Source of the DNA: Myxococcales bacterium
GTDB taxonomy: Bacteria; Myxococcota; Myxococcia; Myxococcales; JAKAPL01
Assembly (NCBI GenBank): GCA_021807105.1
Contig: JAKAPL010000008.1
Coordinates: forward strand, 1 to 64,000
Reading direction: 5' to 3'
DNA: 64,000 bases
Each line of letters opens with the position of its first letter. The first letter of the stretch is position 1. Shown here piece by piece: positions 6,980-61,269 of the stretch. Under the pieces are notes generated by a model. The model had not been told where the DNA came from. It searched no databases and worked only from the letters and a program-made list of their open reading frames with translations. A program made the position numbers and the translations under genes.

Positions 6980-9634
6980 ATGGTCGCTTCCCTCGACAGC
7001 TTCCGCACCCGGCGCACGCTGGCGGTCTCCGGCCGCGAGTACGACTACTTTGCGCTGCCCGCGACGGGACGAGACCTGTCTCGGGTGCCGGTTTCGCTCC
7101 GCATCCTGCTCGAAAACCTCCTACGGCGCGAGGACGGGCGTTCCGTCCGCGAGGAGGACATCGCGGCGCTGCTCGCATGGAGCCCGGCGGCGAGGACGAG
7201 CCGGGAGATCGCGTTCATGCCGGCCCGCGTCCTGCTCCAGGACTTCACGGGCGTGCCGGCGGTCGTAGACCTCGCGGCGATGCGCGACGCGCTGGTCGCG
7301 ATGGGCGGGGACCCCAAGAAGATCAACCCGCTCCAGCCGGTGGACCTCGTGATCGACCACTCGGTCCAGGTCGACCACTTCGGCAGCCCGCAGGCGTTCG
7401 GCCTGAACGCGAAGATCGAGGCGGCGCGCAACCGGGAGCGCTACCAGTTCCTGCGGTGGGGGCAGAAGGCGTTCGACAACTTCCGGGTCGTTCCGCCGGA
7501 CACGGGCATCGTCCACCAGGTGAACCTCGAGTACCTGGCGAGCGTGGTGATGGCGGTCCCCGAGGGCGGGCGGACGCTGCTCCTGCCTGACACGCTGGTC
7601 GGGACCGACTCCCATACGACGATGGTCAACGGGCTCGGCGTGCTCGGCTGGGGGGTCGGCGGGATCGAGGCCGAGGCGGCGATGCTCGGCCAGGCCAGCA
7701 CGATGCTCGTGCCGGAGGTCGTCGGCTTCCGGCTGCGCGGCAAGCTCGCGCCCGGCGCGACGGCGACCGACCTCGTGCTCACCGCGACCCAGATGCTGCG
7801 CAAGCACGGCGTCGTCGGGAAGTTCGTCGAGTACTTCGGCGAGGGGGTCTGCGCCCTGTCGATCGCCGACCGGGCGACGCTCGCCAACATGGCGCCCGAG
7901 TACGGGGCGACGATGGGCTTCTTCCCCGTGGACGCGCAGACGCTCGCCTACCTGCGCTTCTCGGGCCGCAGCGACGAGCAGGTCGCGCTCGTCGAGGCGT
8001 ACTGCAAGGCGCAGGGGATCTTCCACACGCCGGAGACGCCGGAGCCCCGCTACTCGAGCACGATCGATCTCGACCTCGCGACGGTCGAGCCGAGCCTCGC
8101 CGGCCCGAAGCGGCCGCAGGACCGGGTCGCACTCAAGGACGCGAAGGCGTCGTTCGCCGCCGCGCTGCCGGGGCTCGTCAAGGGCGGGGCGAAGCCGGAC
8201 GCGCGGGCCGCGATCGCCGGGGAGACCGAGATCGGCCACGGCGCGGTCGTCATCGCGGCCATCACGAGTTGCACGAACACGTCGAACCCGTCGGTCCTCG
8301 TCGCCGCCGGGTTGCTCGCGAAGAAGGCGGTCGCGAGGGGGCTCTCGCGCAAGCCGTGGGTGAAGACGAGCCTCGCGCCGGGCTCCAAGGTCGTCACCCG
8401 CTACCTCGACGCGGCGGGACTGTCCGCGCCGCTCGCGAAGCTCGGCTTCGACCTCGTGGGGTATGGCTGCACGACCTGCATCGGCAACAGCGGCCCGCTG
8501 CCCGAGGAGGTCGCGGCGGCGATCGAGAAGGGCGGGCTCGTCGCGGCGGCGGTCCTCTCCGGCAACCGCAACTTCGAGGGGCGCGTGAACCCGCTCTGCC
8601 GGGCGAACTACCTCGCCTCGCCGCCGCTCGTCGTCGCCTACGCGATCGCCGGGTCGATGGACGTGAACCTCGCGACCGAGCCGCTCGGGACCGGCGACGA
8701 CGGCCAGCCCGTCTACCTGCGCGACGTCTGGCCCACGACCGAGGAGATCGAGGCCACGGTGCGGGCCGCGCTCGGGCCGAAGCTCTTCCGGGAGGAGTAC
8801 GCGGACGTGTTCGGAGGCGACGCGCTCTGGAAGGCGCTGCCCGTGCCCGAGGGGACGCGCTACGCCTGGGACCGGGGGTCGACCTACATCCAGCGCGCGC
8901 CGTTCTTCGACGGACTGCCGAGGACGCCCGCGCCGCTCGCGGCGCTCACCGGGGCGCGGGCGCTCGCGGTCTTCGGCGACAGCATCACCACCGACCACAT
9001 CTCGCCCGCTGGGAACATCGCGAAGGACGGGCCGGCCGGCCGATACCTCCAGTCGCTCGGGGTCGCGCCGGAGGACTTCAACTCGTTCGGCGCGCGGCGC
9101 GGCAACCACGAGGTCATGGTCCGCGGGACGTTCGCGAACATCCGGATCAAGAACCTGCTCGCCGCCGGCGCCGAGGGGGGCGTGACCGTCCACCAGCCGA
9201 GCGGCGAGAAGCTGTCGATCTACGACGCGGCGATGCGCTACCAGAGAGAGGGCGTGCCGCTCGTCGTGCTCGCGGGCAAGGAGTACGGGACCGGCAGCTC
9301 GCGCGACTGGGCGGCGAAGGGGCCGCGGCTCCTCGGCGTGCGGGCGGTGATCGCGGAGAGCTTCGAGCGGATCCATCGCAGCAACCTCGTCGGCATGGGG
9401 ATCCTGCCGCTCCAGTTCCAACCCGGGGAGAACGTCGCCTCGCTCGGACTGACCGGCCGCGAGGTCTTCGCGATCCCCGGCGTCGGGCAGATCCGCGGGC
9501 CGGGCGGCGCGCTCGCGGTCGAGGCGGATGGCCGGCGGTTCTCGGTCCTCTCGCGGATCGACACCCCCGAGGAGGTCGAGTACCTCCGCCACGGGGGGAT
9601 CTTGCAGTACGTGCTGCGCCAACTCCTCGGATAG
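6980..9634 (+). CDS. acnA: aconitate hydratase A
   Basis: 884 aa; [60 protein letters not shown]. Confidence 0.97.
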
Positions 9635-16215: not shown

Positions 16216-16583
16216 CGCTGGCCTCCGGAGGCGGCCTTCTCGGCCGACTCGTCCCGCTCGCCGGGATGCTCGTCGTAGTACGTCTCGCGGCTCTCGGGCG
16301 TGACCTCGACGACCACGTCCACCGCGCCCACCTCGGCCTGGCAGGAGAGGCGGCTCTCCGGCTTCACGTCGAACGCCTTGTCGAGGATGTCCAGCTCGCG
16401 GTCGTCCTGCTCGGAGAGGCTCGCCAGCCCCTCTCGCACCCAGACGTGGCAGGTCGAGCAGGCGCAGACGCCGCCGCAGGCGTTGCCGATGCGTACCCCC
16501 GCCGCGAGGCCCGCGTCGAGGACGGAGGTCCCGGGCGCGACCTGGGTTTCGACGCCGTCGGGGAGGAAGGTGATCTTCGGCAT
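16212..16583 (-). CDS. fdx: ISC-type [2Fe-2S] ferredoxin
   Basis: GNACGGVCACSTCHVW plus downstream LSCQAEV; adjacent to hscA. Confidence 0.93.
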   Translation of the reverse strand: MPKITFLPDGVETQVAPGTSVLDAGLAAGVRIGNACGGVCACSTCHVWVREGLASLSEQDDRELDILDKAFDVKPESRLSCQAEVGAVDVVVEVTPESRETYYDEHPGERDESAEKAASGGQR

Positions 16584-16586
16584 TGC

Positions 16587-18458
16587 CTACAGATCGTCCA
16601 CTTTCCGTCCCGCGAAGGCGCGCCCGATGGCCCGGTCCATCCTCCGGTGGGCAAACTCCCGGGTGGCCTCGTCGAGCGCGGCCGTCGCCTCGCGGGTCTG
16701 CTCGAGGCTCTCGGCGGCCGCGAGGCTCGCGAGCGCCGCCTCGATCCGGGCCCGCTCCCCGGCGGAGAGCAGATCCCCGTCGCCCGCGAGCGCGCCCTCG
16801 GTGGCCACGCGCAGCCGGTCCGCCTCGACCCGCGCCTCGGCGGAGAGCCGCGCCTGCACGTCCTCGCCCGCGTGCTCGATCGACTCGCGCAACATCCTCT
16901 CGACCTCTTCGTCGCTCAGCCCGTGGGACGGCTTGACCGTGACGGACTGGGTGACGCCGGTCGATTCCTCGCGCGCGGTGACCTGCAGGAGCCCGTCGGC
17001 GTCCACCTGGAAGGTCACCGCCACGCGAGCGTTGCCGGCGGGCAGCGGCGGGATCCCTTCGAGCCGGAAGCGGGCGAGCGAACGGCAGTCGGCCACCAGC
17101 TCTCGCTCGCCCTGCAGCACGTGGACATCCATGGCCGGCTGGCCGTCGGCGAAGGTCGTGAAGATCTGCGTCGCCGAGGTGGGGATGGTGCTGTTGCGCG
17201 GGATGATCTTCTCGACCACCCCCCCCATGGTCTCCAGCCCGAGGGAGAGAGGCAGCACGTCGAGCAGGAGCACGTCGCCCTGCCGCCGCGGGCCCGACAG
17301 GATGTCCGCCTGGACGGCCGCCCCGAGTGCGACGACCTGGTCGGGATCGATGTCGTGGAGAGGCTCGCGGTCGAAGAGGCGGCGGACGAACTCGCGGACG
17401 GCCGGCGCCCGGGTCGAGCCGCCGACGAGGATGACCCCGTCGAGATCGGCGGGCGTGAGGCCCGCGTCGGCGAGCGCACGCCGGCAGGGGGCGGCGGTCC
17501 GCTCGACGAGGGGGGCGATGAGCCGCTCCATCTCCGCGCGGGAGAACGCCCGATCGATCCGGCGGCCTCCGGAATCGATCTTTACCGGCACCTCGCGGGC
17601 GAGGGTGAGCGCCTCCTTCGCGCGGCGCGCCGTGACGAGGCAGGCGTGGACGAGCGCCTCCGGCGCGGGCGAGGGCGCCGCCATCTCGGCGAGGAACGCC
17701 TGGGCGATGACCCGGTCGAAGTCGTCGCCGCCGAGCACCGAGTCGCCGCCGATGGCCTTCACCTGGAAGATCCCCTCGACGAGCTGGAGGATGGAGACAT
17801 CGAAGGTCCCCCCGCCGAGATCGTAGACCGCGAAGGTCCCTTGCGCCCCCTTGTCGAGGCCGTAGGCGAGCGCGGCGGCGGTGGGCTCGGACAGGAGCCG
17901 GAGCACCTCGAGGCCCGCGAGCCTCCCCGCATCCTTGGTCGCCTGCCGCTGCGCGTCGTCGAAGTAGGCGGGGACGGTGATGACCGCCTTCTCGACGCGG
18001 CGGGAGAGCGCGGCCTCGGCCCGGCGCCGCAGCGCGCGGAGGATCTCGGCCGACGCCTCGACCGGCGTGACCTGCCGGCCGCCCGCGAGGAAGCGCACCG
18101 AACGACCGTCGCCCCCGGCGAAACGCCAGGTCGACAGCCGGCGCGTCTCGGGATCGTCCGCGCTCCTGCCCATGAACCGCTTGACGGAGGCCAGCGTGTC
18201 GGCGGGCGCGAGCGGGGCGCCGTCGCGAGCGCGGCGGCCCACGACGGGATCGCCGCCGTCCCGGTAGCGGACGACCGAGGGGAGGAGCACGCCGCCGTCC
18301 TCGTCGACCGGGAGGCAGCGCGGCCGCCCGTTCTCGACCAGGGCGACGAGGGAGTTGGTCGTGCCGAGGTCGATGCCGACGGCCAGGCCGCGGCCGGCCA
18401 TCGGGTCGAGGATCTGCAGGAGGCCGCCGGGAGCGGCCGCGGGTGGGGGCGTGATCAT
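16587..18458 (-). CDS. hscA: Fe-S assembly Hsp70 chaperone HscA
   Basis: [61 protein letters not shown]; next to hscB. Confidence 0.95.
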
Positions 18459-18461
18459 GGA

Positions 18462-18980
18462 TCAGCAGGAGCCGGCGCCGGCCTCCTCGGCGAAGCGATC
18501 GTAATAGCGGATCCGCGCGAGCGCCTCCGCGGCCGCGCGCAGCTTCTCGGGAGCTGCTGGCTCGGAGAGCCCCTCGCCGAGGGCGCCGAGCGACTCCTCG
18601 CGGCGGGCGCGGACGCGCCGGACGAGCTGCTCCACCGCGTCGCGATCTCCCCCGGCCTTCGCCTCGGCGAGCGCCTCGCGCAGCTCCATCACCTCCTCGA
18701 GCAGATCCGGCGGGAGCGGCGCCTGGCTGGCGAGCGTCACGCCCTGCCGCTCGAGCAGGTGGGCGGCCCTCCGGACCGGGTCCTTGAGCGCGCGGTAGGC
18801 GTCATTGAGCGCGGTCGTCCGCGCGAGGGCGAGCCGCCGCTCGGACGGCCCGGCTCCGGCGAAGCGGTCGGGATGGAGCCGCCAGGAGAGATCGCGGAAC
18901 CGTCGCTCGATCTCCTCCGGCGAGAGCGAGAAGCGCGGCGGGAAACCCATGGCCGCGAAGTGGTCCGGTCCCGGCGCCAT
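18462..18980 (-). CDS. hscB: Fe-S assembly co-chaperone HscB
   Basis: J-domain HPDRF, ALNDAYRALKDPVRRAAHLLE; HscB C-terminal helical domain. Confidence 0.93.
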   Translation of the reverse strand: MAPGPDHFAAMGFPPRFSLSPEEIERRFRDLSWRLHPDRFAGAGPSERRLALARTTALNDAYRALKDPVRRAAHLLERQGVTLASQAPLPPDLLEEVMELREALAEAKAGGDRDAVEQLVRRVRARREESLGALGEGLSEPAAPEKLRAAAEALARIRYYDRFAEEAGAGSC

Positions 18981-18992
18981 CTCGACCGCGCG

Positions 18993-19343
18993 CTAGACCG
19001 AGAAGCTCGTCCCGCAGCCGCAAGACTGCTGGGCCTTCGGGTTCTCGAGCTTGAAGCCGCGCCCCATGAGCGTCTGGACGAAGTCGAGCCTCGATCCGCG
19101 CAGGAAGAGGAGGCTCTTCGGGTCGATGTAGACCCGCGCGCCCGACAGCTCGAAGAGCGTGTCGGTCGGGCGTGGCTCGTCGCACAGCTCGAAGACGTAC
19201 GAGAGCCCGGAGCAGCCGCCGCCGCGCACGCCGACCCGCAGGCCGGTCCGCGTGTTCGTCTCGGGCCGGCCGCGGAGGGCTTCCAGGATCTTCTCGGCGG
19301 CCTTCGGGGTCAGCGAGAAGGCGGGCGCTTCCGGGAGGCTCAC
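18993..19343 (-). CDS. iscA: IscA Fe-S cluster assembly protein
   Basis: LRVGVRGGGCSGLSYVFEL...CGCGTSFSV. Confidence 0.94.
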   Translation of the reverse strand: MSLPEAPAFSLTPKAAEKILEALRGRPETNTRTGLRVGVRGGGCSGLSYVFELCDEPRPTDTLFELSGARVYIDPKSLLFLRGSRLDFVQTLMGRGFKLENPKAQQSCGCGTSFSV

Positions 19344-19346
19344 GGG

Positions 19347-19748
19347 CTAGTTCCCCGTCCCCGTGGGGCTCGCGTGCTTTCGCCGCCAGTCGGCGACCGC
19401 CGCCTTGATCGCGTCCTCGGCGAGCACCGAGCAGTGGATCTTGACCGGCGGCAGCGCCAGCTCCTTCGCCACGTCGGTGTTCTTGATCGTGAGCGCCTGG
19501 TCGATGGTCTTACCCTTGACCCATTCGGTGACGAGCGAGGAGCTCGCGATCGCCGAGCCGCAGCCGAAGGTCTTGAACTTCGCGTCCTCGATCCGGCCGT
19601 CGTCGGCGATCCGGATCTGCAGCCGCATGACGTCGCCGCAGGCGGGCGCGCCGACGAGACCGGTGCCGACGTTCGGGTCGCTCTTGTCGAGGGTGCCGAC
19701 GTTTCTCGGGTTCTCGTAATGCTCCAGGACCTTCTCGCTGTATGCCAT
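19347..19748 (-). CDS. iscU: IscU Fe-S scaffold
   Basis: MAYSEKVLEHYENPRNVGTLD...GAPACGDVMRLQI...KTFGCGSAIASSS...KIHCSVLAEDAI. Confidence 0.96.
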   Translation of the reverse strand: MAYSEKVLEHYENPRNVGTLDKSDPNVGTGLVGAPACGDVMRLQIRIADDGRIEDAKFKTFGCGSAIASSSLVTEWVKGKTIDQALTIKNTDVAKELALPPVKIHCSVLAEDAIKAAVADWRRKHASPTGTGN

Positions 19749-19865
19749 CTTCGCTCTCCTACCGTTCTGTCCGGGGACCACCTCGCGCGCCGAGGGGGCC
19801 CCGGGACCGTCCCCGCAGGACGCGCCAGGGGCCCTCGAAGGCCAAGGGAGCTCCCGGACCGGACA

Positions 19866-21083
19866 CTAGTGCGCCTGACCCCAGGCCACCTTGTGCAAGT
19901 CCATGCCCTCCTTGGCCATCTCGTAGAGCGGGGACATCTCGCGGAGCTTGCGCGCCTTCGCGACCACCAGGTCCGCCACGTAGTCGGCCTCCTCGTCGGT
20001 GTTGAAGCGGCCGAGCCCGAAGCGGATCGACGAATGGGCGAGATCCTCGGGGACGCCGCAGGCGCGCAGCACGTAGGACGGCTCGAGGCTCGCCGAAGTG
20101 CAGGCGCTGCCCGAGGAGACGGCCACGTCCTTGATGGCCATCATGAGGGCCTCCCCCTCGACGTAGGAGAACGAGAGGTTGAGGTTCCCGGGGAGCCGGT
20201 GCGTGAGCGACCCGTTGAGCGTCACGAGGTCGAGTCCCTCGGTAATCTTCTTTCGCATCCGCTCCCGCATGGCGGTGAGCCGCGCGCCCTCCGCCGCCAT
20301 CTCCGCCTCCGCGATCTCGCAGGCGCGGGCGAAGCCGACGATGCCCGGGACGTTGAGCGTGCCCGAGCGCATGCCCCGCTCGTGGCCGCCGCCGTCGATC
20401 TGCTCCGCGAGGCGGACCCGTGGCTTGCGGCGGACGTAGAGTGCCCCGACCCCCTTGGGGCCGTAAATCTTGTGGGCGGTGAGCGAGGCGAGGTCGACGT
20501 TGGCCTTCTCGACGTCGAAGGGGACCTTCCCCACCCCCTGGACCGCGTCGCAGTGGAAGAGGACGCCGCGTTCCCGGCAGATCCTCCCGATCTCCTCCAC
20601 CGGCTGGATCGTCCCGATCTCGTTGTTCGCCAGCATGATGGAGACCAGGATGGTCTTCGGGCCGATGGCCTTCTTCAGATCCTCCGGATCGATCCGGCCG
20701 TCCGTGCCCACCGGCAGGTAGCTCACCTCGCAGCCCTGGCGTTCCAGCCGTTTCATGCTGTCGAGGACGGCCTTGTGCTCGATCTTGCCTGTGATCAGGT
20801 GGTTGCCCTTCTCACGGTAGAACTCGGCCACCCCCTTGATGGCGAGGTTGTCGCTCTCCGTCGCCCCGGACGTGAAGAGGATCTCCTTGCCGGAGGCGCC
20901 GATGAGCCTCCCGATGGCCTCGCGCGACCGCTCGACCGCCTCCTCGGCCCTCCAGCCGAAGACGTGGTTGCGGGAGGATGCGTTGCCGAAGGTCTCCTTG
21001 AAGAACGGGAGCATCGCGTCGAGCACCCGCGGGTCGACCGGCGTCGTCGCGTGATTGTCCATGTAGATAGGCAACTTGACCAT
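19866..21083 (-). CDS. iscS: cysteine desulfurase IscS
   Basis: [67 protein letters not shown]; start set to MVKLPIY at 21083. Confidence 0.96.
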
Positions 21084-21410
21084 CGTCGAGAGGCTCTCCT
21101 TCACGCCCTTGACGCCCTTGCGCGAGCCGCGGGGGAATGTGGAGTCCGAACGTCCATCATGCAAGGCGAGTTGTAGCGTCCGCTCTGTGGCTTGTCAATC
21201 CAAAGGGCCGAGGAGCCCAGGGCCCCCGCAAGGTCGCGGCGCGCGAACCTGGTTATGAGGAATCCATGAAACCAGGAGGTTTTCTTCCTGCCTTCCTGGT
21301 TTCCTCATCAAAGTTTCGCTCGCTGCACGACTTTGCCGGGGCCCTGCCGAGGAGCCACCCCAGTTTTCTTGAGCCCTCTACGCGATTCCTGGACCTGTTC
21401 CGGCTCCCCT

Positions 21411-51294: not shown

Positions 51295-52095
51295 ATGAAG
51301 ATCCTCGTGACGGTCAAACGGGTCGAAGACCCCTACCAGGCCATCAAGGTCAAGCCCGACGGGAGCGGCATCATCTCCGACGGGATGAACTACAAGCCGA
51401 ACCCCTTCGACGAGATCGCCGTCGAGGAGGCGTTGCGGCTGCGCGACACGCACCAGGGCGAGGTCGTCGCGGTGACCCTCGGCAACGAGAAGTGCGTCGC
51501 GGAGCTGCGGCAGGCGCTCGCGATGGGCGCGGACCGGGGCATCCACGTGCGCCACGACGGCCCCCTCGACTCGGACGGCGTCGCCCGCGTGCTCGCGAAG
51601 ATCGTCGAGCAGGAGAAGCCGGATCTCATCCTCACGGGCAAGCAGGCGATCGACGACGACCAGAACCAGGCGGGGCAGCTCCTCGCGGAGTACCTCCACC
51701 TGGGCCAGGCGACGTTCGCCTCCAAGAAGGAGAGCCTGGAGTCCGAAGCCGAGAAGGCCAAGAAGCCCGGCCTCACGCTGCTGCCGGGCGGCAAGGCGAT
51801 CGAGGTCGTCCGCGAGGTCGACGGGGGCTTGGAGACCCTCGCTCTCCCGCTGCCGGCGGTCGTCACCTGCGACCTGCGGCTGAACCTGCCCCGCTACGCC
51901 TCGCTGCCGAACATCATGAAGGCGAAGAAGAAGGAAGTGAAGGAGCTGTCGCCCGCCGGACTCGGCGTGGACATGACGCCCAAGGTGACCACGCGCCGGT
52001 TCGCGGCGCCGGCGGCCCGCAAGGGGGGCGTCAAGGTCCCGGACGTGGCGACGCTCGTCGAGAAGCTGCGCCACGAAGCCAAGGTCATCTCTTGA
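51295..52095 (+). CDS. etfB: electron transfer flavoprotein beta subunit
   Basis: MKILVTVKRVEDPYQAIKVKPDGSGI...NPFDEIAVEEALRLRD...GKQAIDDDQNQAGQLLAEYL. Confidence 0.96.
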   Translation: MKILVTVKRVEDPYQAIKVKPDGSGIISDGMNYKPNPFDEIAVEEALRLRDTHQGEVVAVTLGNEKCVAELRQALAMGADRGIHVRHDGPLDSDGVARVLAKIVEQEKPDLILTGKQAIDDDQNQAGQLLAEYLHLGQATFASKKESLESEAEKAKKPGLTLLPGGKAIEVVREVDGGLETLALPLPAVVTCDLRLNLPRYASLPNIMKAKKKEVKELSPAGLGVDMTPKVTTRRFAAPAARKGGVKVPDVATLVEKLRHEAKVIS

Positions 52096-52340
52096 TCGGG
52101 GGCCCGTGCGGGCGGCCCTTCGGGCCGTCCTCCGATGCCCCCGCGCCCCGCGCGCTCGCCGGCACAGCCGTCTCGCGCTTTGTGATCGGGGGCCCGTGCG
52201 GGCGGCCCTTCGGGCCGTCCTCCGATGCCCCCGCGCCCCGCGCGCTCGCCGGCACAGCCGTCTCGCGCTTTGTGATCGGGGGCCCGTGCGGGCGGCCCTT
52301 CGGGCCGTCCTCCGAACGCCCCCGCGCCCTCGGTCGGGCT
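52094..52340. repeat. 90-bp tandem repeat (about 2.7 units) between etfB and etfA
   Basis: gatcgggggcccgtgcgggcggcccttcgggccgtcctccgatgcccccgcgccccgcgcgctcgccggcacagccgtctcgcgctttgt starting at 52094, 52184, 52274. Confidence 0.93.
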
Positions 52341-52383
52341 CATCCGCACTTCCTCGGGATTTGAGGAGAAAAAGGAGACCGTG

Positions 52384-53349
52384 ATGAACAACGTCCTCGT
52401 CGTCGCCGAACAACTCGCGGGGGCCCTGCGCAAGGCCTCGCTCCCCGCCGTGAAGGCCGGGCGGGAGCTGGCGGGGAGGACCGGCGGGAGGCTCCACGTC
52501 CTGGTCATGGGCCGGGGCGTCGCCGCCGCGGCCACGGAGATCGCCGCGTACGGTCCCGACGAGGTCGACGTCGTCGAGGACGCGGCGCTCGAACACGGGC
52601 TCGCCGAGCCGGCGGCGCAGGCGGTGGAGCAGGTGGCGCGCGCGCTCGGGGCGGGCTACGTCGTCGCGACGGCCTCCTCGACGGGCAAGGACCTGATGCC
52701 GCGGGTCGCCGCCCGGCTCGGCGCGGGCATGGCGACGGACGTGCTCGGCTTCGTGGGGGACGGCCCGAACCTCGCCTTCCGCCGGCCGATGTGGGCGGGG
52801 GCGGTGATCGCGGAGGTGGAGATCACGACCCCGATCCGGGTCCTCACCGTGAGGGGGACGGAGTTCGGCGCGCCCCCGAAGGCGCCGGCGCCGGCACCGG
52901 TGAAGCCGATCCCGGCGGCGATCGACGCCGCCGCGGTGAAGACCCGGTTCGTCTCCCTGGAGCAGGTCAAGAGCGCGCGACCGGAGCTGACCGAGGCGAA
53001 GGTCATCGTGGCCGGGGGGCGCGGGACGAAGGGCGACTTCAAGCCGGTCGAGGCGCTCGCCGACTCGCTCGGGGCGGCGGTCGGGGCGAGCCGCGCCGCC
53101 TGCGACGCGGGCTGGGTCCCGAACGACTGGCAGGTCGGGCAGACGGGGAAGACCGTGGCGCCCGAGCTCTACATCGCCGCGGGGATCTCCGGGGCCATCC
53201 AGCACCTCGCGGGGATGAAGAACTCGAAGGTCATCGTGGCCATCAACAAGGACCCGGAGGCGCCGATCTTCCAGGTCGCCGACTACGGCCTCGTCGGCGA
53301 CCTCTTCAAGGTCCTGCCCGAGTTGCAAGCCGCGCTCAACAAGGGGTAG
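52384..53349 (+). CDS. etfA: electron transfer flavoprotein alpha subunit
   Basis: [108 protein letters not shown]. Confidence 0.97.
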
Positions 53350-53649
53350 GGCGGCGGGGCTCCTCGCGCCGTCCACCCCCCAAAGGGGATGAACGTTACG
53401 AGGCGTCGCGGCCACGGTAGGGACCGGCGAGTCCCGCCATGACCCATGCCGCGCGAAGAATGAGCGATGGTCCCACGAGAAACGAGGCTTGACGGGGCGC
53501 GGCAAGAGCGAGGGCTCCCCGTGCTCCCGGACCGCCGTGATTCGGTCCGGACGTCGCGGCGCGGTCCGCCGGTGGGCCGCGCCGGGCCGCCGCCTCCGCG
53601 GAGCGCGCCGTGTTGACAGTCATGACCCGTGACGCCCAGAATGGCTCCC

Positions 53650-53952
53650 ATGGATGAACTGCTGTCGCTCTTCCCCGCCCCGGCCGAGGGGGTGGCGTCG
53701 CGGGTCGTCGACGGGCTCGCGGTCGCGGTCACGCCGGAGGACAGCACCCTCCACACCTTCGAGAACGAGGTGGCGACGGAGATCTGGCGGCTCGCCGACG
53801 GGAGGCGGCCGGTGAGCGAGATCGTCGACGGCATCACCGCGGCGTTCGAGGTGGACCGCGCGCGGGCCGAGGAGGATGTCCTGCGGTTCGTGCGGCTTCT
53901 GCGCGAGCGCGGGCTGGTGGAGTTTTCCCCGGAGGCGCGGCCGAGCCGCTAG
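53650..53952 (+). CDS. PqqD-family protein (RiPP recognition element-like)
   Basis: VVDGLAVAVTPEDSTLHTFENEVATEIWRLADGRRPVSEIVDGITAAFEVDRARAEEDVLRFVRLLRERGLVEF; start ATG 53650 or upstream 53629. Confidence 0.85.
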   Translation: MDELLSLFPAPAEGVASRVVDGLAVAVTPEDSTLHTFENEVATEIWRLADGRRPVSEIVDGITAAFEVDRARAEEDVLRFVRLLRERGLVEFSPEARPSR

Positions 53953-54000
53953 GCGCGGCGGCCCGATCGGGGAACGGACCTATCAAGGACTGGAGAGGCA

Positions 54001-57000
54001 ATGGCACGCACGATGACGGGAAAGATGGGGATGGGGATCCTGGGCGCGGCGCTGCTCTCGGCCTGCCCGCAGAAGCCCGCTCCTCCCAAGCCCTCGATCG
54101 GCTTCGCGTCCCCGACGGCCGGAGCGACGCTCCACGCCTCGGACAGCACCGGCTCCCCCCCGGCCGGGGCCATCTCGATCCCGGTGAAGCTCACCACGAC
54201 GAACGCCGCGGTCGGGTCCGGCGTGACGCTGACGGTCGACGGCGCGGCCGCGGCGCAGACGACCGTGCAGAGCGGCGGGGCGGCGAGCCTCGCAGGCGTC
54301 ATCCTCACCGGGTCCGCCGCGGGTACGGCGCACACGCTCCAGGCGAGCGTCCTCGATTCGGGCGGGAACGGGAGCGCGCAGGCGAGCATCCAGGTGACGG
54401 TGGTCCTGCCGCCGGCCACCTGCGCCATCCAGAGCCTCACCCCGACGTCCGGGACCATCTTCAACGAGACCGGCCTGACCGTCGCCGGCCAGACGACGAT
54501 CAAGGACGAGGATCCGACGCGGGCCGGGATGCAGGCGAAGATCGTCGCGACGACGACCTGCACCGACGGCAGCTCCGCCTCCTTGTTCGCGGGGTCGCAG
54601 CTGCTCGCGACCGCGACCGTCCTCGGGGGGCAGGTCGTCTTCGACGAGGTGACGCTGCCGGACACCCCCATCCAGGCGCTGTCGGACAAGAGCCAACAGC
54701 TTCAGATCTCCGTCGCGATCGAGGCCGCGGGCGGGACCGCCACCCTGACCGCGTCCTACGTCGTCGACTCGAACGTGCCGACGGCCGTGATCGTCTCCCC
54801 GGTCGACGGCGCGGCCTTCACCGCGGCCGACGACGTGGATCCGAGCACGCCGGGCGTGCAGCGGGTCATCTCCGGCACGACCAGCGGGTTCAAGGAGCTC
54901 TCCGCCAACATCCCCGTGTCGTTCTCCATCGTCCCCGCCGCCGGCCTTGCCGCCCAGAACCCCTACCTGGTGGACGCCAACGGCGGGCCGGCGACCCTCA
55001 AGGCGAGCGACGGCAGCTTCCAGATCTGGATCACGCTCAACGACGGACAGGACCCGCTGGTCTTCTGGGCGGAGACCGCGACCGGGAACGTCGTGACGAG
55101 CCCGATCGTGACGGTCAGCTCGAGCGCGACCCCGACGCTCGCCATCACCGACCCGCACGACGGGCAGCTCCTGACGCAATCCGATGACGTGAAGCCGGAC
55201 CAGCCCGGGCTCCAGTACGAGATGTTCCTCTCGACGACCGCCGCGGCCGGGAGCACGATCACCGTCTGCAGCACGGTCGCCCCGCCGGGCGGCAGCCCCA
55301 CGGCGTGCCCCCTCTCCTGCGCGGGCTTTTCCGGGGGCTTCGTCGTCGGGACCGCGCCCGCGGCCGGCGCCCAGACGCCGCTCGCCTTCGCGACCTTCGG
55401 GGACGGCGACCAGACCCTGATCGCCGGGGTGACGGACCCGGGCGGGTCGGCCTGCTCCGCGCCGGTCGCGATCTCGGTCCACGCGACGCGGCCCGCCGTC
55501 ACGCAGCTCTCCTTCGAGGGGGCGTACGTGGATTCCGACGGCGGCCTCTGGCTCAACGCCGCCAACGTGAGCCCCGACGGCGGGGGCGCCTCTTCGGTGG
55601 CTCGGGTGATCCTCGATCCGGCGGGGGAGTTCCTCCTGCCGGACGGGGGGGCGTCGCTGGTGACCCTGGCGAACGAGCAGTCCGGGCAGACGCTCGCGAC
55701 CGCGCCCGTCGGGGAGGGCGACGCGGGGCCGGAGGCGGACATCCCCGTGACGCTCGCGGACGGCCCCTATGCCTTGCGGGCGATGGTGACCGACATCTGG
55801 GGCAACGCGAGCCAGCCCAAGGATCCGGCGGCGAACGCGCAGCTCGTCGTCAAGACGAGTCTCCCCTCCTGCACGCTCACCGGGCCGAACGGCCCGTACT
55901 GGAACGTGGCCGACGACGGCAGGAGCCAGACGGGGGACGTGACGATCCCGGTGACCCTGGCCGCGGCCAACGCGACCGCGCAGGATGTCGCCGGCGCGGC
56001 CGTCCCGGGTTCGCTCGTCGTGGCGGTCAACGCCGACGCGGGGACGCCGATCCCGGTGACCGGCAGCCTCGTCAGCGCGCCCACGGCCGCGCCGCAAGGG
56101 CCGGACGCGATCACCGCGACCCTCTCCGATCCCGCGGGCAACGGTCCCGTCGCCTGCACGCCGGCGGGCGGCCTCGCCCTCACCGTGGCCACGGTGGCGC
56201 CCACCATCTCCCTCTCGGCGGGGACGCCCTCCGGCCGGGCCCTGCCGCTGACGATCACCACGACCGAGGCCGAGGCGGGCCTGCCGATCGCGATCTTCGT
56301 CAACTCCCTGACCTGGCCCACCACGGCGAAGGTCGGCGCCTCGAACACGACGAGCGTCACGCTCGAGGGGCTGCCCAACGGCCGCGACGCGATCACCGCC
56401 TCGGTGACGGACCTCGCGGGGAACGTCGCGATGAGCGGCGCGGTGAACGTGACCATCAGCGCCGCGGGATGCTCGGTGATCGTCGAGAGCCCGTCGGAGA
56501 ACCCGATCCTCTTCAACGGCACCGGAGCCCTCGGGACCGTGTCGGGCGATCGGATCCTCGCGCAGGTCACGGTGAACACGCCGGATTGCAAGGGGCAGAC
56601 CCTGTACCTGACGAACACGCCCCAGGGGGGCGGCCCCACGACGACGCAGCTCGTCTCCGACCCGAACAGCGGCAACGCGATCTTCACGCTGTCGCTCGCC
56701 GACGGCGCCAGCGGCCAGTTGTACGCGTCGAGCTGCCCGCAGGCGACCCAGAACTGCAACGGGAGCTGCACCTGCACGCCGGCCATCCCGTACGAAACCA
56801 AGCTCACGGCCCCCAGCCTCACGGTCCCCACGCCGGCCTCGACCTCGCTGTCGATCGTCGCCTACTCGGGCAACCCGACCGCCGGGCAGACGATCGGCGG
56901 GGCGCTCGTCGTGGCCAACGCCGCCGATGACACGGCGGCCGCCCACGCGGCGTTCGGCGGGACGGTGTCGGGGCTCGGCCCGCAGAACGGGACCGGGAAC

Positions 57001-58869
57001 CTGGGGAGCGCGAGCCTCCACCTCGCCTTCGCCGGGGTGACGACCGCTGACCCGCCGTCGCAGTCGCTCGTCGCCGATCCTACGCCGGTCTCTTTCCCCG
57101 ATGTCCACCTCCCGCCGCACGCGGCCGGGACGGTGACGCTGACCGTGACCGACAACGCCGGGAACCCGTCCACGGCCGTCTGGACGGTCAAGACCGACGT
57201 GGTGCCGCCGGCGGCGCCCTCGCCGTCCGCGAAGATCGCGACCGCGCAGGACGCCCGGACCGGCACCGTGACCCTCGGCTGGACCGCGCCGGCCGACGAC
57301 GGCACGGACGCGACGAGCGGTCCGGTGACCTCGTACGATCTCCGCTGGTCCACGACCGTGGACCCGGCGACCGACGCGCAGTTCTTCGGCGGCGGGATGA
57401 CCGCCGACACCGGCATCGGCTCGCTGACCGTCCAGGCGCCCGGGCAATCGCAGACGTACGCCCTCGGCGGCCTGCCGCCCCTCAACACGTACTACGTCGC
57501 CCTGCGCGCGGTCGACGCCGTGGGGAACCGGTCGCCGCTCACGGTCAACACCGTCACGAACCTCTGGAACAGCGTCACCCTGACCGGCCCGAGCGGCTCG
57601 AACCTGGGCTACTCGATGGCGAGCGGCGACTTCAACGGGGACGGGAGGATCGACCTCGCGATCGGCGGCCCCAACTTCGGCGGCGGGGCGGGCGGGGCCT
57701 ACGTCGTCTACGGGGTGAGCGATCTCTCGACGCTCGGGAACGGCTCCCTCGTCGCCGTCTCCAACGACTCGGCCGGCGACCTGATGGGCTATGACCTGGC
57801 GGTCGGCGACCTCGACGGCGACGGCTACGCCGACCTCGCGGTGGGCTCTCCGAGCTGGAGCGGCAGCCGCGGTCGGGTGGACATCTACTTCGGCAGCGCG
57901 ACCGGGTTGCCGGCGGCGCCGTCCGTCGAGATCCAGGGCACGGTGGGCACGAACGGCAAGTTCGGTCGCGCCGTCAAGATCGTGGGAGCCATCAACAAGG
58001 CGGAGAACAACGGCACCCCGCAGCCGGCGTTGTTCATCGGCGCGCCGCTGGAGGGCAACGGGACGGGCTACCTCTTCTTCGGCCGTACCAAGACGCAGTG
58101 GGCGGCGCTCGGCTCCTCGCCCCTGCCGACCTCCGCGGCGGACCTGGCCCTCTCCGGCCCCGCCGGCAGCGACTTCGGCTTCCGCTGGGCCGCGGCCGGC
58201 ATCGGCGACATCAACGGCGACGGCTACCCCGACTTCATCCTCCCCGATTCGCCCATGAGCACGGTGTACGGCTTCTCCGGCAGGGCGGTCACGGCGCTCG
58301 CCGCCGCGGGCAAGACCGCGACCGTAGCCCAGAACACCCTGTTCACCGAGCAGGACCCGGCGGGCGGCGGCGCGTGCGCCGACACCGGAACGTACGACTG
58401 CTTCGGGATGACGGCGGTCGGCGGGCTCTCGTTCACCGGCGGATCGACCCCGGACGTCGTCGTCTCGTCGATCCTCACCGCCGGAGACGTCGACAAGGTC
58501 TACCTCTTCTCGACCTCGGGGGGCACGATCAACGGGACGCCGGTGACTACGTTGACGGGATCCGGCGGCACCTTCGGCTGGGCGCTCGCCGCCGCGGACG
58601 TGAATGGAGACGGACGGCCTGATCTCCTCGTGGGGACGAACGGGACCCATACCCCCCAGGCGTTCCTCTACCTGGATCGGGCGAGCGCACCCTATCTCGG
58701 CCCGTCGCCCGACGCCGTGATCCAGGGGGCCACCGCGCCCTTCGGCTTCAGCCTGGCGGCCGGTTCCTTCAACGGCCAGCAGTGGACGGCGGGGCCCGAC
58801 GCGGCCACGGGGCTTCCCGACATCGCCGCCGGCGCCCCGCTGGCCAACACGGTGACGATCGATTACTAG
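54001..58869 (+). CDS. large lipoprotein with Ig-like and FG-GAP/VCBS (integrin-like) repeats
   Basis: 1622 aa; lipobox ALLSACPQK; Ig/fibronectin-like repeats; C-terminal SGDFNGDGRIDLAIGGP, VGDLDGDGYADLAVGSP, IGDINGDGYPDFI, AADVNGDGRPDLLVG. Confidence 0.92.
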   Translation: MARTMTGKMGMGILGAALLSACPQKPAPPKPSIGFASPTAGATLHASDSTGSPPAGAISIPVKLTTTNAAVGSGVTLTVDGAAAAQTTVQSGGAASLAGVILTGSAAGTAHTLQASVLDSGGNGSAQASIQVTVVLPPATCAIQSLTPTSGTIFNETGLTVAGQTTIKDEDPTRAGMQAKIVATTTCTDGSSASLFAGSQLLATATVLGGQVVFDEVTLPDTPIQALSDKSQQLQISVAIEAAGGTATLTASYVVDSNVPTAVIVSPVDGAAFTAADDVDPSTPGVQRVISGTTSGFKELSANIPVSFSIVPAAGLAAQNPYLVDANGGPATLKASDGSFQIWITLNDGQDPLVFWAETATGNVVTSPIVTVSSSATPTLAITDPHDGQLLTQSDDVKPDQPGLQYEMFLSTTAAAGSTITVCSTVAPPGGSPTACPLSCAGFSGGFVVGTAPAAGAQTPLAFATFGDGDQTLIAGVTDPGGSACSAPVAISVHATRPAVTQLSFEGAYVDSDGGLWLNAANVSPDGGGASSVARVILDPAGEFLLPDGGASLVTLANEQSGQTLATAPVGEGDAGPEADIPVTLADGPYALRAMVTDIWGNASQPKDPAANAQLVVKTSLPSCTLTGPNGPYWNVADDGRSQTGDVTIPVTLAAANATAQDVAGAAVPGSLVVAVNADAGTPIPVTGSLVSAPTAAPQGPDAITATLSDPAGNGPVACTPAGGLALTVATVAPTISLSAGTPSGRALPLTITTTEAEAGLPIAIFVNSLTWPTTAKVGASNTTSVTLEGLPNGRDAITASVTDLAGNVAMSGAVNVTISAAGCSVIVESPSENPILFNGTGALGTVSGDRILAQVTVNTPDCKGQTLYLTNTPQGGGPTTTQLVSDPNSGNAIFTLSLADGASGQLYASSCPQATQNCNGSCTCTPAIPYETKLTAPSLTVPTPASTSLSIVAYSGNPTAGQTIGGALVVANAADDTAAAHAAFGGTVSGLGPQNGTGNLGSASLHLAFAGVTTADPPSQSLVADPTPVSFPDVHLPPHAAGTVTLTVTDNAGNPSTAVWTVKTDVVPPAAPSPSAKIATAQDARTGTVTLGWTAPADDGTDATSGPVTSYDLRWSTTVDPATDAQFFGGGMTADTGIGSLTVQAPGQSQTYALGGLPPLNTYYVALRAVDAVGNRSPLTVNTVTNLWNSVTLTGPSGSNLGYSMASGDFNGDGRIDLAIGGPNFGGGAGGAYVVYGVSDLSTLGNGSLVAVSNDSAGDLMGYDLAVGDLDGDGYADLAVGSPSWSGSRGRVDIYFGSATGLPAAPSVEIQGTVGTNGKFGRAVKIVGAINKAENNGTPQPALFIGAPLEGNGTGYLFFGRTKTQWAALGSSPLPTSAADLALSGPAGSDFGFRWAAAGIGDINGDGYPDFILPDSPMSTVYGFSGRAVTALAAAGKTATVAQNTLFTEQDPAGGGACADTGTYDCFGMTAVGGLSFTGGSTPDVVVSSILTAGDVDKVYLFSTSGGTINGTPVTTLTGSGGTFGWALAAADVNGDGRPDLLVGTNGTHTPQAFLYLDRASAPYLGPSPDAVIQGATAPFGFSLAAGSFNGQQWTAGPDAATGLPDIAAGAPLANTVTIDY

Positions 58870-58885
58870 GACACCACTCTCCTAG
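58866..58885. repeat. solo family 1 MITE terminal inverted repeat
   Basis: ctaggacaccactctcctag; 58869-58885 matches ggacaccagtctcctag of copy A at 16/17; overlaps the VCBS gene stop codon. Confidence 0.55.
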
Positions 58886-58897
58886 GAGGGTTTCACG

Positions 58898-59023
58898 ATG
58901 GAAAAGCGACCCTACGAAGCTCCACGGTTGACCTCCGAGAAGGTCTTCATCCCGATGCTCAACGCCGCGACCAGCACGCTCGCCGGGTACGGCGCCTTCA
59001 AGCGCCCGCCGCCGAAGCATTGA
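58898..59023 (+). CDS. candidate RiPP precursor peptide (41 aa) with YxxPxL leader motif
   Basis: SD aggaggg then MEKRPYEAPRLTSEKVFIPMLNAATSTLAGYGAFKRPPPKH; stop overlaps the start of the next gene (ATGA). Not in the ORF track (too short). Confidence 0.8.
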   Translation: MEKRPYEAPRLTSEKVFIPMLNAATSTLAGYGAFKRPPPKH

Positions 59024-59745
59024 ACCTGGCCGCGGCGATCGAGATCGGGGGGCGCCGGATCGAGATACGGACCGGCGACGAGCGCCTGCGTGAGTTGGCC
59101 GTCGCGTTCGCGAGCTATCCCTCGCTGCGCGCCGAGGGGAGCCGCCCCCCGGACGTCCAGCTCCTCCTGTCGCACGCCGAGCGCATGCGCTGGGATCCGG
59201 GCCCGCACCCGTCCGGGGCCTGTCCTCCCGAGCCGCTTGCGCTCTGGATCCTCCTCCGGTCGGCCATCGCCCGCGCCCTCGCGCCGGAGGGAGCCGTGCT
59301 CCACTCGGCCGCGGCGGCCATCGACGGCCGCGCGCTGCTCTTTCTCGCACCGCCTGGCGGCGGCAAGACCACGATCATCGACCTGCTCGAACCGGACGCC
59401 GAGCTGATCGGAGACGAGCTCGTCGCGGTGACACCCGACCCGGCGCGCGGCGGCTTCCGGGTGCAAGGGACTCCCTGCTGGAGCGGCCGTTTCCGCGAGG
59501 GAGCCGCCGGCAGCTTCCCCGTGTCGGCGATCTGCTTTTTGCGCAAGGGGGCGCTCGACCTCGCCCCGCTGCCGCGCCCAGCCGCGCTGCGCGAGCTGCT
59601 GCCCCAATGCTATCTCACCGACCGGCCGCGGGCCGCGGTCGAGACCCTCGACTTCGCGACCGCCTTGCTCGCGCGGACGCCTGCGTACGCTCTGACCTTC
59701 CCTCTCGGCGCGAGCCTCGCGCCGTGGCTTCGCCGGCGGTGGTAG
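59020..59745 (+). CDS. HprK-like kinase (HPr-kinase-related P-loop protein)
   Basis: VLHSAAAAIDGRALLFLAPPGGGKTTIIDLL (Walker A), AELIGDELVAVTPD (Walker B-like), RELLPQCYLTDRPRAAVETL. Confidence 0.82.
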   Translation: MNLAAAIEIGGRRIEIRTGDERLRELAVAFASYPSLRAEGSRPPDVQLLLSHAERMRWDPGPHPSGACPPEPLALWILLRSAIARALAPEGAVLHSAAAAIDGRALLFLAPPGGGKTTIIDLLEPDAELIGDELVAVTPDPARGGFRVQGTPCWSGRFREGAAGSFPVSAICFLRKGALDLAPLPRPAALRELLPQCYLTDRPRAAVETLDFATALLARTPAYALTFPLGASLAPWLRRRW

Positions 59746-60768
59746 ATGCGCGCTCCACTCCCCGCTCCCGAACCCCGCGGCCCCGACGCCCTCGAGCCGC
59801 CGCCGTTCGAGCAGCTCCCCGTCGCCCTTTCGTGGCGCTGCGACTTTGCCTGCCGCCATTGCTGCATCTCCGCGACCCCGGAGGCCACCGCGGACGAGAT
59901 GACCGCGGCGGAGCTCTCGGAGTGGCTCCCCGCCGTCGCGCGGCAATTCCGCCTCGTCTGTTTCACGGGGGGGGAGCCCACCCTCGCCTGGGATCGCCTC
60001 CTGGCGGGGATCCGCGCGTGCACCGCGGTGGGGGTCCCGGCGACGATGGTGAGCCACGGCAAGTGGCTCGACGGGGATGGCGCGAACGAGCGGATGGACC
60101 TCCTCGCCGGCGCGGGGCTGACGTTCCTGACGCTGAGCTACGACGAGTACCACGACCCCTTCTGGCCGAAGGCGCGGCTGCTCGATGCGGTGGGGCGAGC
60201 CGCCGCGCACGGCTTCTCGGTCTGGGTGAAGCTCGTCCGCGGCACCCGCTTCTCCGAAGGCTGGGCAGACGAGTTCCGCGCCGCCGGAGCGGTCTGGGCC
60301 GGGGTCCAGGATCTCTACGAGGTGGGGCGGGCGCGGCTCGTCAAGCTGCGCGGGACCAGGGTCGAGCCCCTCTCCTCGTGCCCCTCGCTCGCGAGCCCGA
60401 TGCTCGCGCCGAACGGGGATCTCTTCGCCTGTTGCAACGCCGAGACCTTGCGGGCCACGCACCTCCTCGGCAACGCGCGGGAGCACCCCATCGCGGAGCT
60501 GCTCGCTCGCCGGCGCACGAACCCGCTGCTCACCGCGGAGATGGCGCTCGGCCCCGGGGGCCTGGCCGAGATCCTCGGCCTGAAGGACGGATCCGACAAC
60601 CTGTGCCGGCTGTGCGCCGAGATCATGCGCTCGCCGGCGCGGGTCGCCCGCCTGCGCGAAGCGCTCGGACGGTCCGATCTTCGCCGGCAGATCGTCGGCA
60701 GGAACCTCCTCTTCGCCTGCCAGGAGTACGACGTGCCCGCGTTGCCGCTGCGGCGCAAGGAGGGCTGA
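59746..60768 (+). CDS. radical SAM protein with SPASM-like C-terminal Cys region
   Basis: ALSWRCDFACRHCCIS (CxxxCxxC), VCFTGGEPTLAWDRL, LSYDEYHDPFW, CPSLASPMLAPNGDLFACCN and LCRLCAEIM. Confidence 0.9.
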   Translation: MRAPLPAPEPRGPDALEPPPFEQLPVALSWRCDFACRHCCISATPEATADEMTAAELSEWLPAVARQFRLVCFTGGEPTLAWDRLLAGIRACTAVGVPATMVSHGKWLDGDGANERMDLLAGAGLTFLTLSYDEYHDPFWPKARLLDAVGRAAAHGFSVWVKLVRGTRFSEGWADEFRAAGAVWAGVQDLYEVGRARLVKLRGTRVEPLSSCPSLASPMLAPNGDLFACCNAETLRATHLLGNAREHPIAELLARRRTNPLLTAEMALGPGGLAEILGLKDGSDNLCRLCAEIMRSPARVARLREALGRSDLRRQIVGRNLLFACQEYDVPALPLRRKEG

Positions 60769-60771
60769 ACC

Positions 60772-61269
60772 TTGCGGCTCCCGGAGGGCGCCTTCTGGTC
60801 GTCGCACCCCGCGGCGGGGCTGCTCGCCGAGCAGGTCGCGGCTCGGTCGTGCGGCCCGCTCGTCACCGCCTCGGGGCTGGGGCTCACGCGTACCATGGGG
60901 GCGTGCATGTGGCCGGGGATCCGCGAGGGCGACCTCCTCTTCTTCCGGCCGCTGCCCGCCGGGACGCCGCTCGCGCCGCTGCTCGGGACCGTCGCGCTGG
61001 CCCGGGACGGGGGACGGATCGTCGGGCATCGGCTCCTGCGCGCCTTCGGCCTCCCTGGCCGCGAACGGTTCGTGCTCTCCGGCGATCTCGCGGATCCCGA
61101 TCCCCCGCGGCCCCGCGAGACGCTCCTCGGGATCGTCCGCGCGGTCTACCGGCCGGGCAAGGGTTTCCTGGACCCACCGGACGCGAGGCCGTCGGGGCCG
61201 CTGTCGCGGGCGCTCCTGTCCCGGGTGGCCCGCCTGGCGACCTGGGCCGCCCGCGAGGGCGTTCGCTGA
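60772..61269 (+). CDS. S24/S26 signal-peptidase-like protein with Ser-to-Cys change at the nucleophile position
   Basis: TMGACMWPGIREGDLLFFRPL (canonical GxSMxPxxxxGD), GTVALARDGGRIVGHRLLRAF, FVLSGDLADPDPPR; TTG start. Confidence 0.75.
   Translation: MRLPEGAFWSSHPAAGLLAEQVAARSCGPLVTASGLGLTRTMGACMWPGIREGDLLFFRPLPAGTPLAPLLGTVALARDGGRIVGHRLLRAFGLPGRERFVLSGDLADPDPPRPRETLLGIVRAVYRPGKGFLDPPDARPSGPLSRALLSRVARLATWAAREGVR

Follow-up and report, generated by a model that had tools for sequence, protein, structure and literature searches.

Several described peptide pathways share parts with the subject of this report, a six-gene cluster at positions 53650-61269 of a 64,000-nucleotide stretch of contig JAKAPL010000008.1 (the window) from a Myxococcales bacterium (GenBank GCA_021807105.1; a draft assembly of 3.76 Mb in 129 contigs). 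These pathways make or modify ribosomally synthesized and post-translationally modified peptides (RiPPs). The system for linear polyphosphorylated peptides (LPP) of Bacillota (lppAKBSDN) combines a RiPP recognition element (RRE), an HprK-like protein and an archaeal-type signal-peptidase-like enzyme (Popov et al., 2026; PMC13381572). In LPP the RRE presents the precursor, residues S29, H68 and D93 of LppS are required, and the phosphorylated serine lies at Tyr+18 of the published motif (PMC13381572). The epipeptides (EpeX/EpeE, YydF/YydG; PDB 8AI1-8AI6) depend on the radical S-adenosylmethionine (SAM) enzyme EpeE, whose residue C223 is the hydrogen-atom donor in the published mechanism (PMC5682303). 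SynChlorMet (ScmA-F) and GeoRSP cassettes, known from NCBIfam, place PqqD-like and ScmC-like P-loop proteins beside radical SAM enzymes. Phosphorylated lasso peptides of the Bsf and paeninodin type possess an RRE, an HprK-like kinase and a [Y/W]xxP leader, and an FG-GAP protein, regarded as unrelated, borders the bsf lasso cluster of B. sediminis (PMC10368454). A 2023 review of RiPP leader proteases makes no mention of S24, S26 or signal peptidase, and no paper was found on the gene combination described below.

The window cluster most likely makes a small modified peptide, joining two toolkits that have been described separately in Gram-positive bacteria: a kinase with a signal-peptidase-like protease, and a radical enzyme of the type that converts amino acids to their mirror image. 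The reading favored here, with moderate confidence, is that of an LPP-type RiPP locus of the Myxococcota, vertically inherited and in this genome equipped with an EpeE-type radical SAM epimerase. A preliminary description of the window had proposed an unusual RiPP system of six same-strand genes, and all six open reading frames (ORFs) are present as it listed them. G001, used for comparison throughout, is a genome of the same genus.

53650..53952, + strand: PqqD-type RiPP recognition element (discrete RRE); Pfam PqqD, 60.2 bits; 67% identity to the G001 homologue
54001..58869, + strand: giant FG-GAP beta-propeller lipoprotein, 1622 amino acids (aa), lipobox LLSAC; Pfam FG-GAP, 97 bits
58898..59023, + strand: RiPP precursor peptide, 41 aa; a precursor also at the equivalent position in 17 other loci
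59020..59745, + strand: HprK/ScmC-like P-loop kinase; NCBIfam ScmC, 28 bits, and HprK_rel_A, 19.5 bits
59746..60768, + strand: EpeE/YydG-like radical SAM enzyme (predicted peptide epimerase); TIGR04078 YydG, 58.9 bits; Pfam Radical_SAM, 48 bits
60772..61269, + strand: SEC11/archaeal-type signal-peptidase-like leader peptidase (putative), Cys variant; family profile match to SEC11A/C
51295..53349, + strand: etfB-etfA, a conserved upstream landmark not claimed as part of the pathway; similar neighborhood in genomes of families f1, f4, f8, f10, f11 and f15

The tight packing reported earlier holds in its spacing, except that the peptide and kinase genes overlap at TTGA, with a TTG start for the kinase, and not at ATGA. 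The peptide ORF is preceded by a strong AGGAGG ribosome-binding site. For the PqqD gene, whose Pfam match bears out its earlier assignment as an RRE, the ATG start is backed by the G001 homologue, with an alternative GTG possible at 53629. The single sequences of the window kinase, peptide and peptidase have no Pfam match; kinase and peptidase were identified through family profiles.

Like LPP, the locus has a discrete PqqD-type RRE and a YxxPx[V]-type leader; its putative HprK-like kinase and predicted archaeal-type signal-peptidase-like leader peptidase resemble those of LPP, and the spacing of Ser/Thr near the core start matches the LPP phosphosite at Tyr+18. Unlike LPP, it contains an EpeE-like radical SAM enzyme and an FG-GAP lipoprotein, and the nucleophile of the window peptidase is Cys where that of LPP is Ser, although Ser forms occur among relatives of the window enzyme. 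In the window and in G001, the stretch from etfA to the FHA gene that follows the cluster contains neither of two LPP core components, the nucleoside triphosphate (NTP) transferase and the MsbA-like exporter. With the epipeptides the locus shares a full-length homologue of the radical SAM enzyme, including the hydrogen-donor Cys and other C-terminal cysteines, yet this enzyme falls far below the NCBIfam equivalog cutoff and is accompanied by an RRE and a kinase. Because it lacks the NTP transferase and exporter and has the radical SAM enzyme, the FG-GAP protein and, in the window, Cys, the locus was filed as neither LPP nor epipeptide. SynChlorMet and GeoRSP cassettes resemble it in their PqqD-like and ScmC-like proteins, but here a single EpeE-like radical SAM enzyme is present and a signal-peptidase-like enzyme and FG-GAP protein are added; all members score far below the equivalog cutoffs (ScmC 28 of 125 bits, ScmD 30 of 100 bits). 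The Bsf and paeninodin clusters share RRE, kinase and leader with it and differ in having a macrolactam cyclase and B2 peptidase and in lacking a radical SAM enzyme. The locus is not a lasso cluster, nor does it represent a canonical epipeptide cluster. Since LPP was published in 2026 (PMC13381572), the RRE, kinase and signal-peptidase half is no longer unprecedented.

Conservation of the cluster was assessed by a phylum-wide profile search for the radical SAM enzyme in 195 genomes, attributed to the Myxococcota on genome sizes and family pattern with gene content in support, and a second search with an eight-row profile. Eight loci score at least 375 bits, and nothing else exceeds 105 bits. 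The whole cluster, each time with a short precursor, is conserved in these 8 of 195 genomes, and the order FG-GAP, short peptide, P-loop protein, radical SAM enzyme, signal-peptidase-like protein is kept in all eight; in G163 the last of these comes after an M1-peptidase gene. PqqD lies upstream of FG-GAP in every radical SAM locus whose contig reaches that far (7/7). The G001 cluster is complete and its gene order unchanged; its proteins are 58-75% identical to those of the window, and etfBA on the upstream side and the FHA gene on the downstream side are kept as well. An M1-peptidase gene stands beside the locus in five other genomes (L020 5056-6873; L021 5929-7680; L022 5851-7869, with a lipoprotein-like start; L023 10911-12647; L019 11018-12550) and is found at neither the window nor the G001 locus. 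More distant radical SAM matches (G012, G058, G111, G131, G136, G064:C227) were set aside for their wide score gap from the eight, and those in G136, G111 and G064 (L024-L026) have no precursor of the cluster type or peptidase nearby. Beyond the Myxococcota, a contig scan returned one weak archaeal radical SAM match, and plasmids yielded three distant radical SAM enzymes.

The window precursor has a leader with Y6xxP9xL11 followed by S13, T25/S26 near the core start, the C-terminal sequence YGAFKRPPPKH and no Cys. Its G001 counterpart is MASKLPYEPPRLISEKVFLPMLNAATSALGYGGFQRPPPPKK. The ORF is under purifying selection, which the preliminary description had set as a test: the ratio of nonsynonymous to synonymous substitution (dN/dS) between the two is about 0.30 (dS 0.82, dN 0.25), slightly below or similar to that of neighboring genes. 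A precursor also occupies the equivalent position in six genomes more distant than G001. Because of the full cluster in G001, the dN/dS near 0.3 and these six distant precursors, the peptide is no chance ORF. The Y-x-x-P-x-[LIV] leader is common to all eight peptides of radical SAM loci, and so is a motif resembling YGPFRxxPRR at the C-terminal end.

The EpeE assignment sharpens what had been described as a radical SAM/SPASM enzyme. The best NCBIfam family is YydG/EpeE (TIGR04078), at a score far below its equivalog cutoff of 300 bits, and in a single-sequence search of the PDB the EpeE structures 8AI1-8AI6 are the sole relatives. The eight-row family profile matches EpeE at 109.6 bits over profile positions 16-300 (285 positions), with PqqE as the next family at 35.8 bits. 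Eight cysteines are invariant across the eight enzymes (C32, C36, C39, C212, C229, C230, C287 and C290); C32/C36/C39 form the CxxxCxxC motif, and C230 (codon 60433-60435) aligns with EpeE C223, the residue changed in the C223A mutant 8ai3. Judged by these profiles, the enzyme is a full-length EpeE/YydG relative that retains the predicted catalytic Cys. Foldseek on an AlphaFold model of the enzyme also ranks EpeE first (TM about 0.36), a result not counted as independent proof. The G064 enzyme is fused to a methyltransferase (L023 8078-9991, an EpeE-like radical SAM part with a SAM-dependent methyltransferase and a weak PRMT5_C match). The G064 precursor ends in YGPFRESPRREP, so Arg could be the methyltransferase target.

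When flanks were compared, etfB-etfA preceded the locus in several families, and profiles were therefore run against the region following etfA at about 60 loci. Ten loci lacking the radical SAM enzyme were found, mostly just downstream of etfBA, with PqqD, FG-GAP, precursor and signal-peptidase-like protein (G002, G005, G009, G012, G072, G089, G110, G115, G116 and G117). Nine of them also have the kinase; none was found at the G072 locus. Neighborhood conservation, set beforehand as a test of the proposal, is seen for the whole cluster in eight genomes, with the radical SAM enzyme absent from the locus in ten others. The earlier claim of a YxxPxL precursor extends to both kinds of locus as a YxxPx[LIV] leader (18/18 precursors). 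Cys is found in none of the eight precursors from radical SAM loci and in all ten from loci without the enzyme, a perfect split whose probability is 2.3e-5 when every genome is counted separately, though related genomes are not independent. The cleanest contrast falls within one family, between the window and G001 on one side and G002 on the other. The split apparently ties the radical SAM enzyme to core type. The absence of Cys from the precursors of radical SAM loci argues against thioether chemistry, and sactipeptide or ranthipeptide assignments were rejected on this ground. On the best reading the radical SAM enzyme is an optional part of the locus, and the EpeE-type enzyme belongs to it in three lineages.

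The kinase was originally called HprK-like, and its matches are weak but consistent. The window protein reaches 28 bits against ScmC (cutoff 125) and 19.5 bits against HprK_rel_A, its relatives match HprK_rel_A/B and phosphoenolpyruvate (PEP) carboxykinase models, and the family profile matches P-loop proteins and PEP carboxykinase in the PDB. Ser or Thr occurs at Tyr+18/19 in 17 of 17 precursors of kinase loci against a shuffled mean of 4.4, a count that relatedness inflates and for which the position pair was picked after the peptides had been viewed. The window residue at Tyr+19 is T25, with S26 adjacent. The G072 precursor, from the locus in which no kinase was found, has no Ser/Thr at these positions. 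Phosphorylation of core Ser/Thr by the HprK/ScmC-like protein is predicted from this pattern.

The peptidase is a Cys variant, as first described, and its type is revised from S24/S26-like to SEC11/archaeal signal peptidase. SEC11A and SEC11C are the subunits that carry out catalysis in the signal peptidase complex of eukaryotes. The family profile matches them at E 4e-8, with the Cys aligned with the Ser nucleophile, and two homologues match the archaeal signal peptidase I model TIGR02228 weakly. The window triad is C45 (60904), H86 (61027) and D105 (61084). At the nucleophile position the window, G001, G002, G064, G065 and G066 have Cys, whereas G061, G063, G163 and genomes of families f4 and f8 have Ser; no intact locus lacks the His. 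In several relatives a GNAT domain follows at the C-terminus. Five f4 genomes keep only a peptidase-GNAT gene behind etfA (L089, L090, L103, L104 and L105, about 1.6-2.7 kb downstream), with RRE, FG-GAP, precursor and kinase gone. Nucleophile and His positions of these orphans are Cys/Gln in G050, G054 and G133 and Gly/His in G130; G145 is intact. Both residues are kept in 17 of 17 loci with precursor, kinase and peptidase, and one is changed in four of the five orphans (Fisher 7e-4, with no correction for relatedness; G050 and G054 are closely related). This distribution suggests that peptidase activity is maintained for the peptide.

The branching of the FG-GAP and kinase trees agrees with genome families and places G002 beside the window and G001. 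A single G002 protein combines kinase and peptidase, and no gene occupies the place that the radical SAM enzyme takes in the window. Given this fusion and the tree grouping, the locus is most simply read as vertically inherited, with loss of the radical SAM enzyme in G002. A large part of the Myxococcota appears to have inherited the locus at one chromosomal site. Not every locus is linked to etfA: the G061 cluster lies on a contig without etfA, and the etfA contig of G061 has no cluster. In many genomes, including those examined from the f6 family, nothing of the cluster kind is found next to etfA.

The analysis shows homology, synteny, sequence conservation, the active-site residues and a link between core Cys and absence of the radical SAM enzyme; from these we infer a pathway of epimerization, phosphorylation and cleavage, together with the order of these steps and a role for the FG-GAP protein. 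The PqqD protein would bind the YxxPx[LIV] leader and present the precursor, and the HprK-like kinase would then phosphorylate Ser/Thr at Tyr+18/19 (T25 in the window, or the adjacent S26). Within the Cys-free core, the radical SAM enzyme would remove a hydrogen from C-alpha and C230 would return one, giving one or more D-residues. The Cys-His-Asp signal-peptidase-like enzyme would cut the leader in the cytoplasm, probably at about Tyr+13 to +15. Further tailoring of the product may come from a fused GNAT domain or methyltransferase in other lineages. The product would finally act with the co-encoded surface FG-GAP lipoprotein. A wider proposal, offered tentatively and best regarded as speculative, is that the ancestral system made a phosphorylated, epimerized peptide with a thiol-type (Cys-His-Asp) signal peptidase for use with its own giant surface lipoprotein, as a physiological surface or signalling peptide and not a toxin, and that whole lineages swapped a Cys-based core for a Cys-free core modified by the radical SAM enzyme, or the reverse.

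Several observations weigh against an LPP-type locus with an EpeE-type epimerase. Epimerization, phosphorylation and cleavage are predictions from sequence and synteny. Counted by lineage, the Cys split is 3 versus 4 (p about 0.03), the precursors being phylogenetically non-independent. EpeE D210, the residue changed in the D210A mutant 8ai6, has no conserved counterpart in these enzymes; the kinase matches HprK-type models weakly, at 20-30 bits; the cluster has no exporter; and no EpeX-type precursor, EpeP M50 protease or EpeAB occurs among the six genes or their conserved neighbors. The single-sequence AlphaFold models of the radical SAM enzyme (pLDDT 52, marginal) and of the peptidase (pLDDT 37, too poor to use) are such that both folds rest on sequence profiles.

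The missing D210 counterpart also counts in favor of a different chemistry, in which the pathway is otherwise unchanged and the radical SAM enzyme forms a carbon-based crosslink or other C-H modification at the Tyr-Gly-x-Phe-Arg/Lys motif near the C-terminus. No other core feature of precursors from radical SAM loci is as well conserved as the YGPFRxxPRR-like motif, which has many aromatic residues and Arg, and the methyltransferase fused to the G064 enzyme would fit as well. Such a modification is nevertheless rather improbable: EpeE is the closest characterized family by a wide margin, the hydrogen-donor Cys is invariant, crosslinking maturases such as PqqE score far lower, and G002, with no radical SAM enzyme, keeps a YQGFQRPPPSK tail, so the tail is not strictly tied to the enzyme. 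A peptide-derived cofactor or redox carrier, similar to PQQ or mycofactocin and linked to the neighboring electron-transfer flavoprotein, is quite unlikely. Vertical inheritance beside etfBA and the lack of an exporter look more housekeeping-like than toxin-like, but etfBA is kept where the locus is missing, cluster and etfA lie apart in G061, core sequences vary, unlike those of a cofactor precursor, and no locus is without a lipoprotein partner.

The giant FG-GAP lipoprotein accompanies the locus throughout: its homologues are syntenic in loci with and without the radical SAM enzyme, and PqqD lies directly upstream wherever the contig reaches. FG-GAP proteins are common in Myxococcota, and no sequence link joins this one to the peptide, so that it might be a passenger with no role in the pathway. 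This is improbable, since in several families and both kinds of locus the gene sits between RRE and precursor, its tree follows genome families, and the orphan-peptidase genomes lack it together with RRE, kinase and peptide. That the locus makes a lasso peptide or is a degenerate lasso cluster is scarcely credible. The RRE, kinase and [Y/W]xxP leader do recur in paeninodin- and Bsf-type clusters, and the bsf cluster is bordered by an FG-GAP repeat protein, but no B2 peptidase or asparagine-synthetase-like cyclase is seen among the cluster genes of the eight radical SAM loci, and leader cleavage is assigned to a signal-peptidase-type enzyme; a lasso cluster was rejected for the former reason, in agreement with the preliminary description.

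If the LPP-type reading with an EpeE-type epimerase is true, peptide epimerization of the EpeE type would occur in Gram-negative bacteria, guided by an RRE and combined with a kinase, and a Cys-nucleophile variant would be added to the signal-peptidase fold. Loci with and without radical SAM enzyme, kinase and peptide provide a natural experiment on which enzyme acts on which part of the precursor. Vertical inheritance, mostly at one genomic position, is unusual for a RiPP locus. The constant FG-GAP lipoprotein offers a testable partner for the peptide, and on the present data FG-GAP proteins bordering such clusters, for example bsf, deserve a second look.

Three minor features were observed in passing. 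In L026 (G111, about 7065-8853, reverse strand) a distant EpeE-like radical SAM enzyme of f4 genomes immediately follows a 230-aa protein and may belong to a further system for modifying peptides or proteins. Between etfB and etfA the window contains 2.6 copies of a 90-bp unit with 98% match (52093-52329). At 16266-21176 on the + strand a 1636-aa ORF matches Pfam NAD-GH (348 bits) and could be an antisense artefact.

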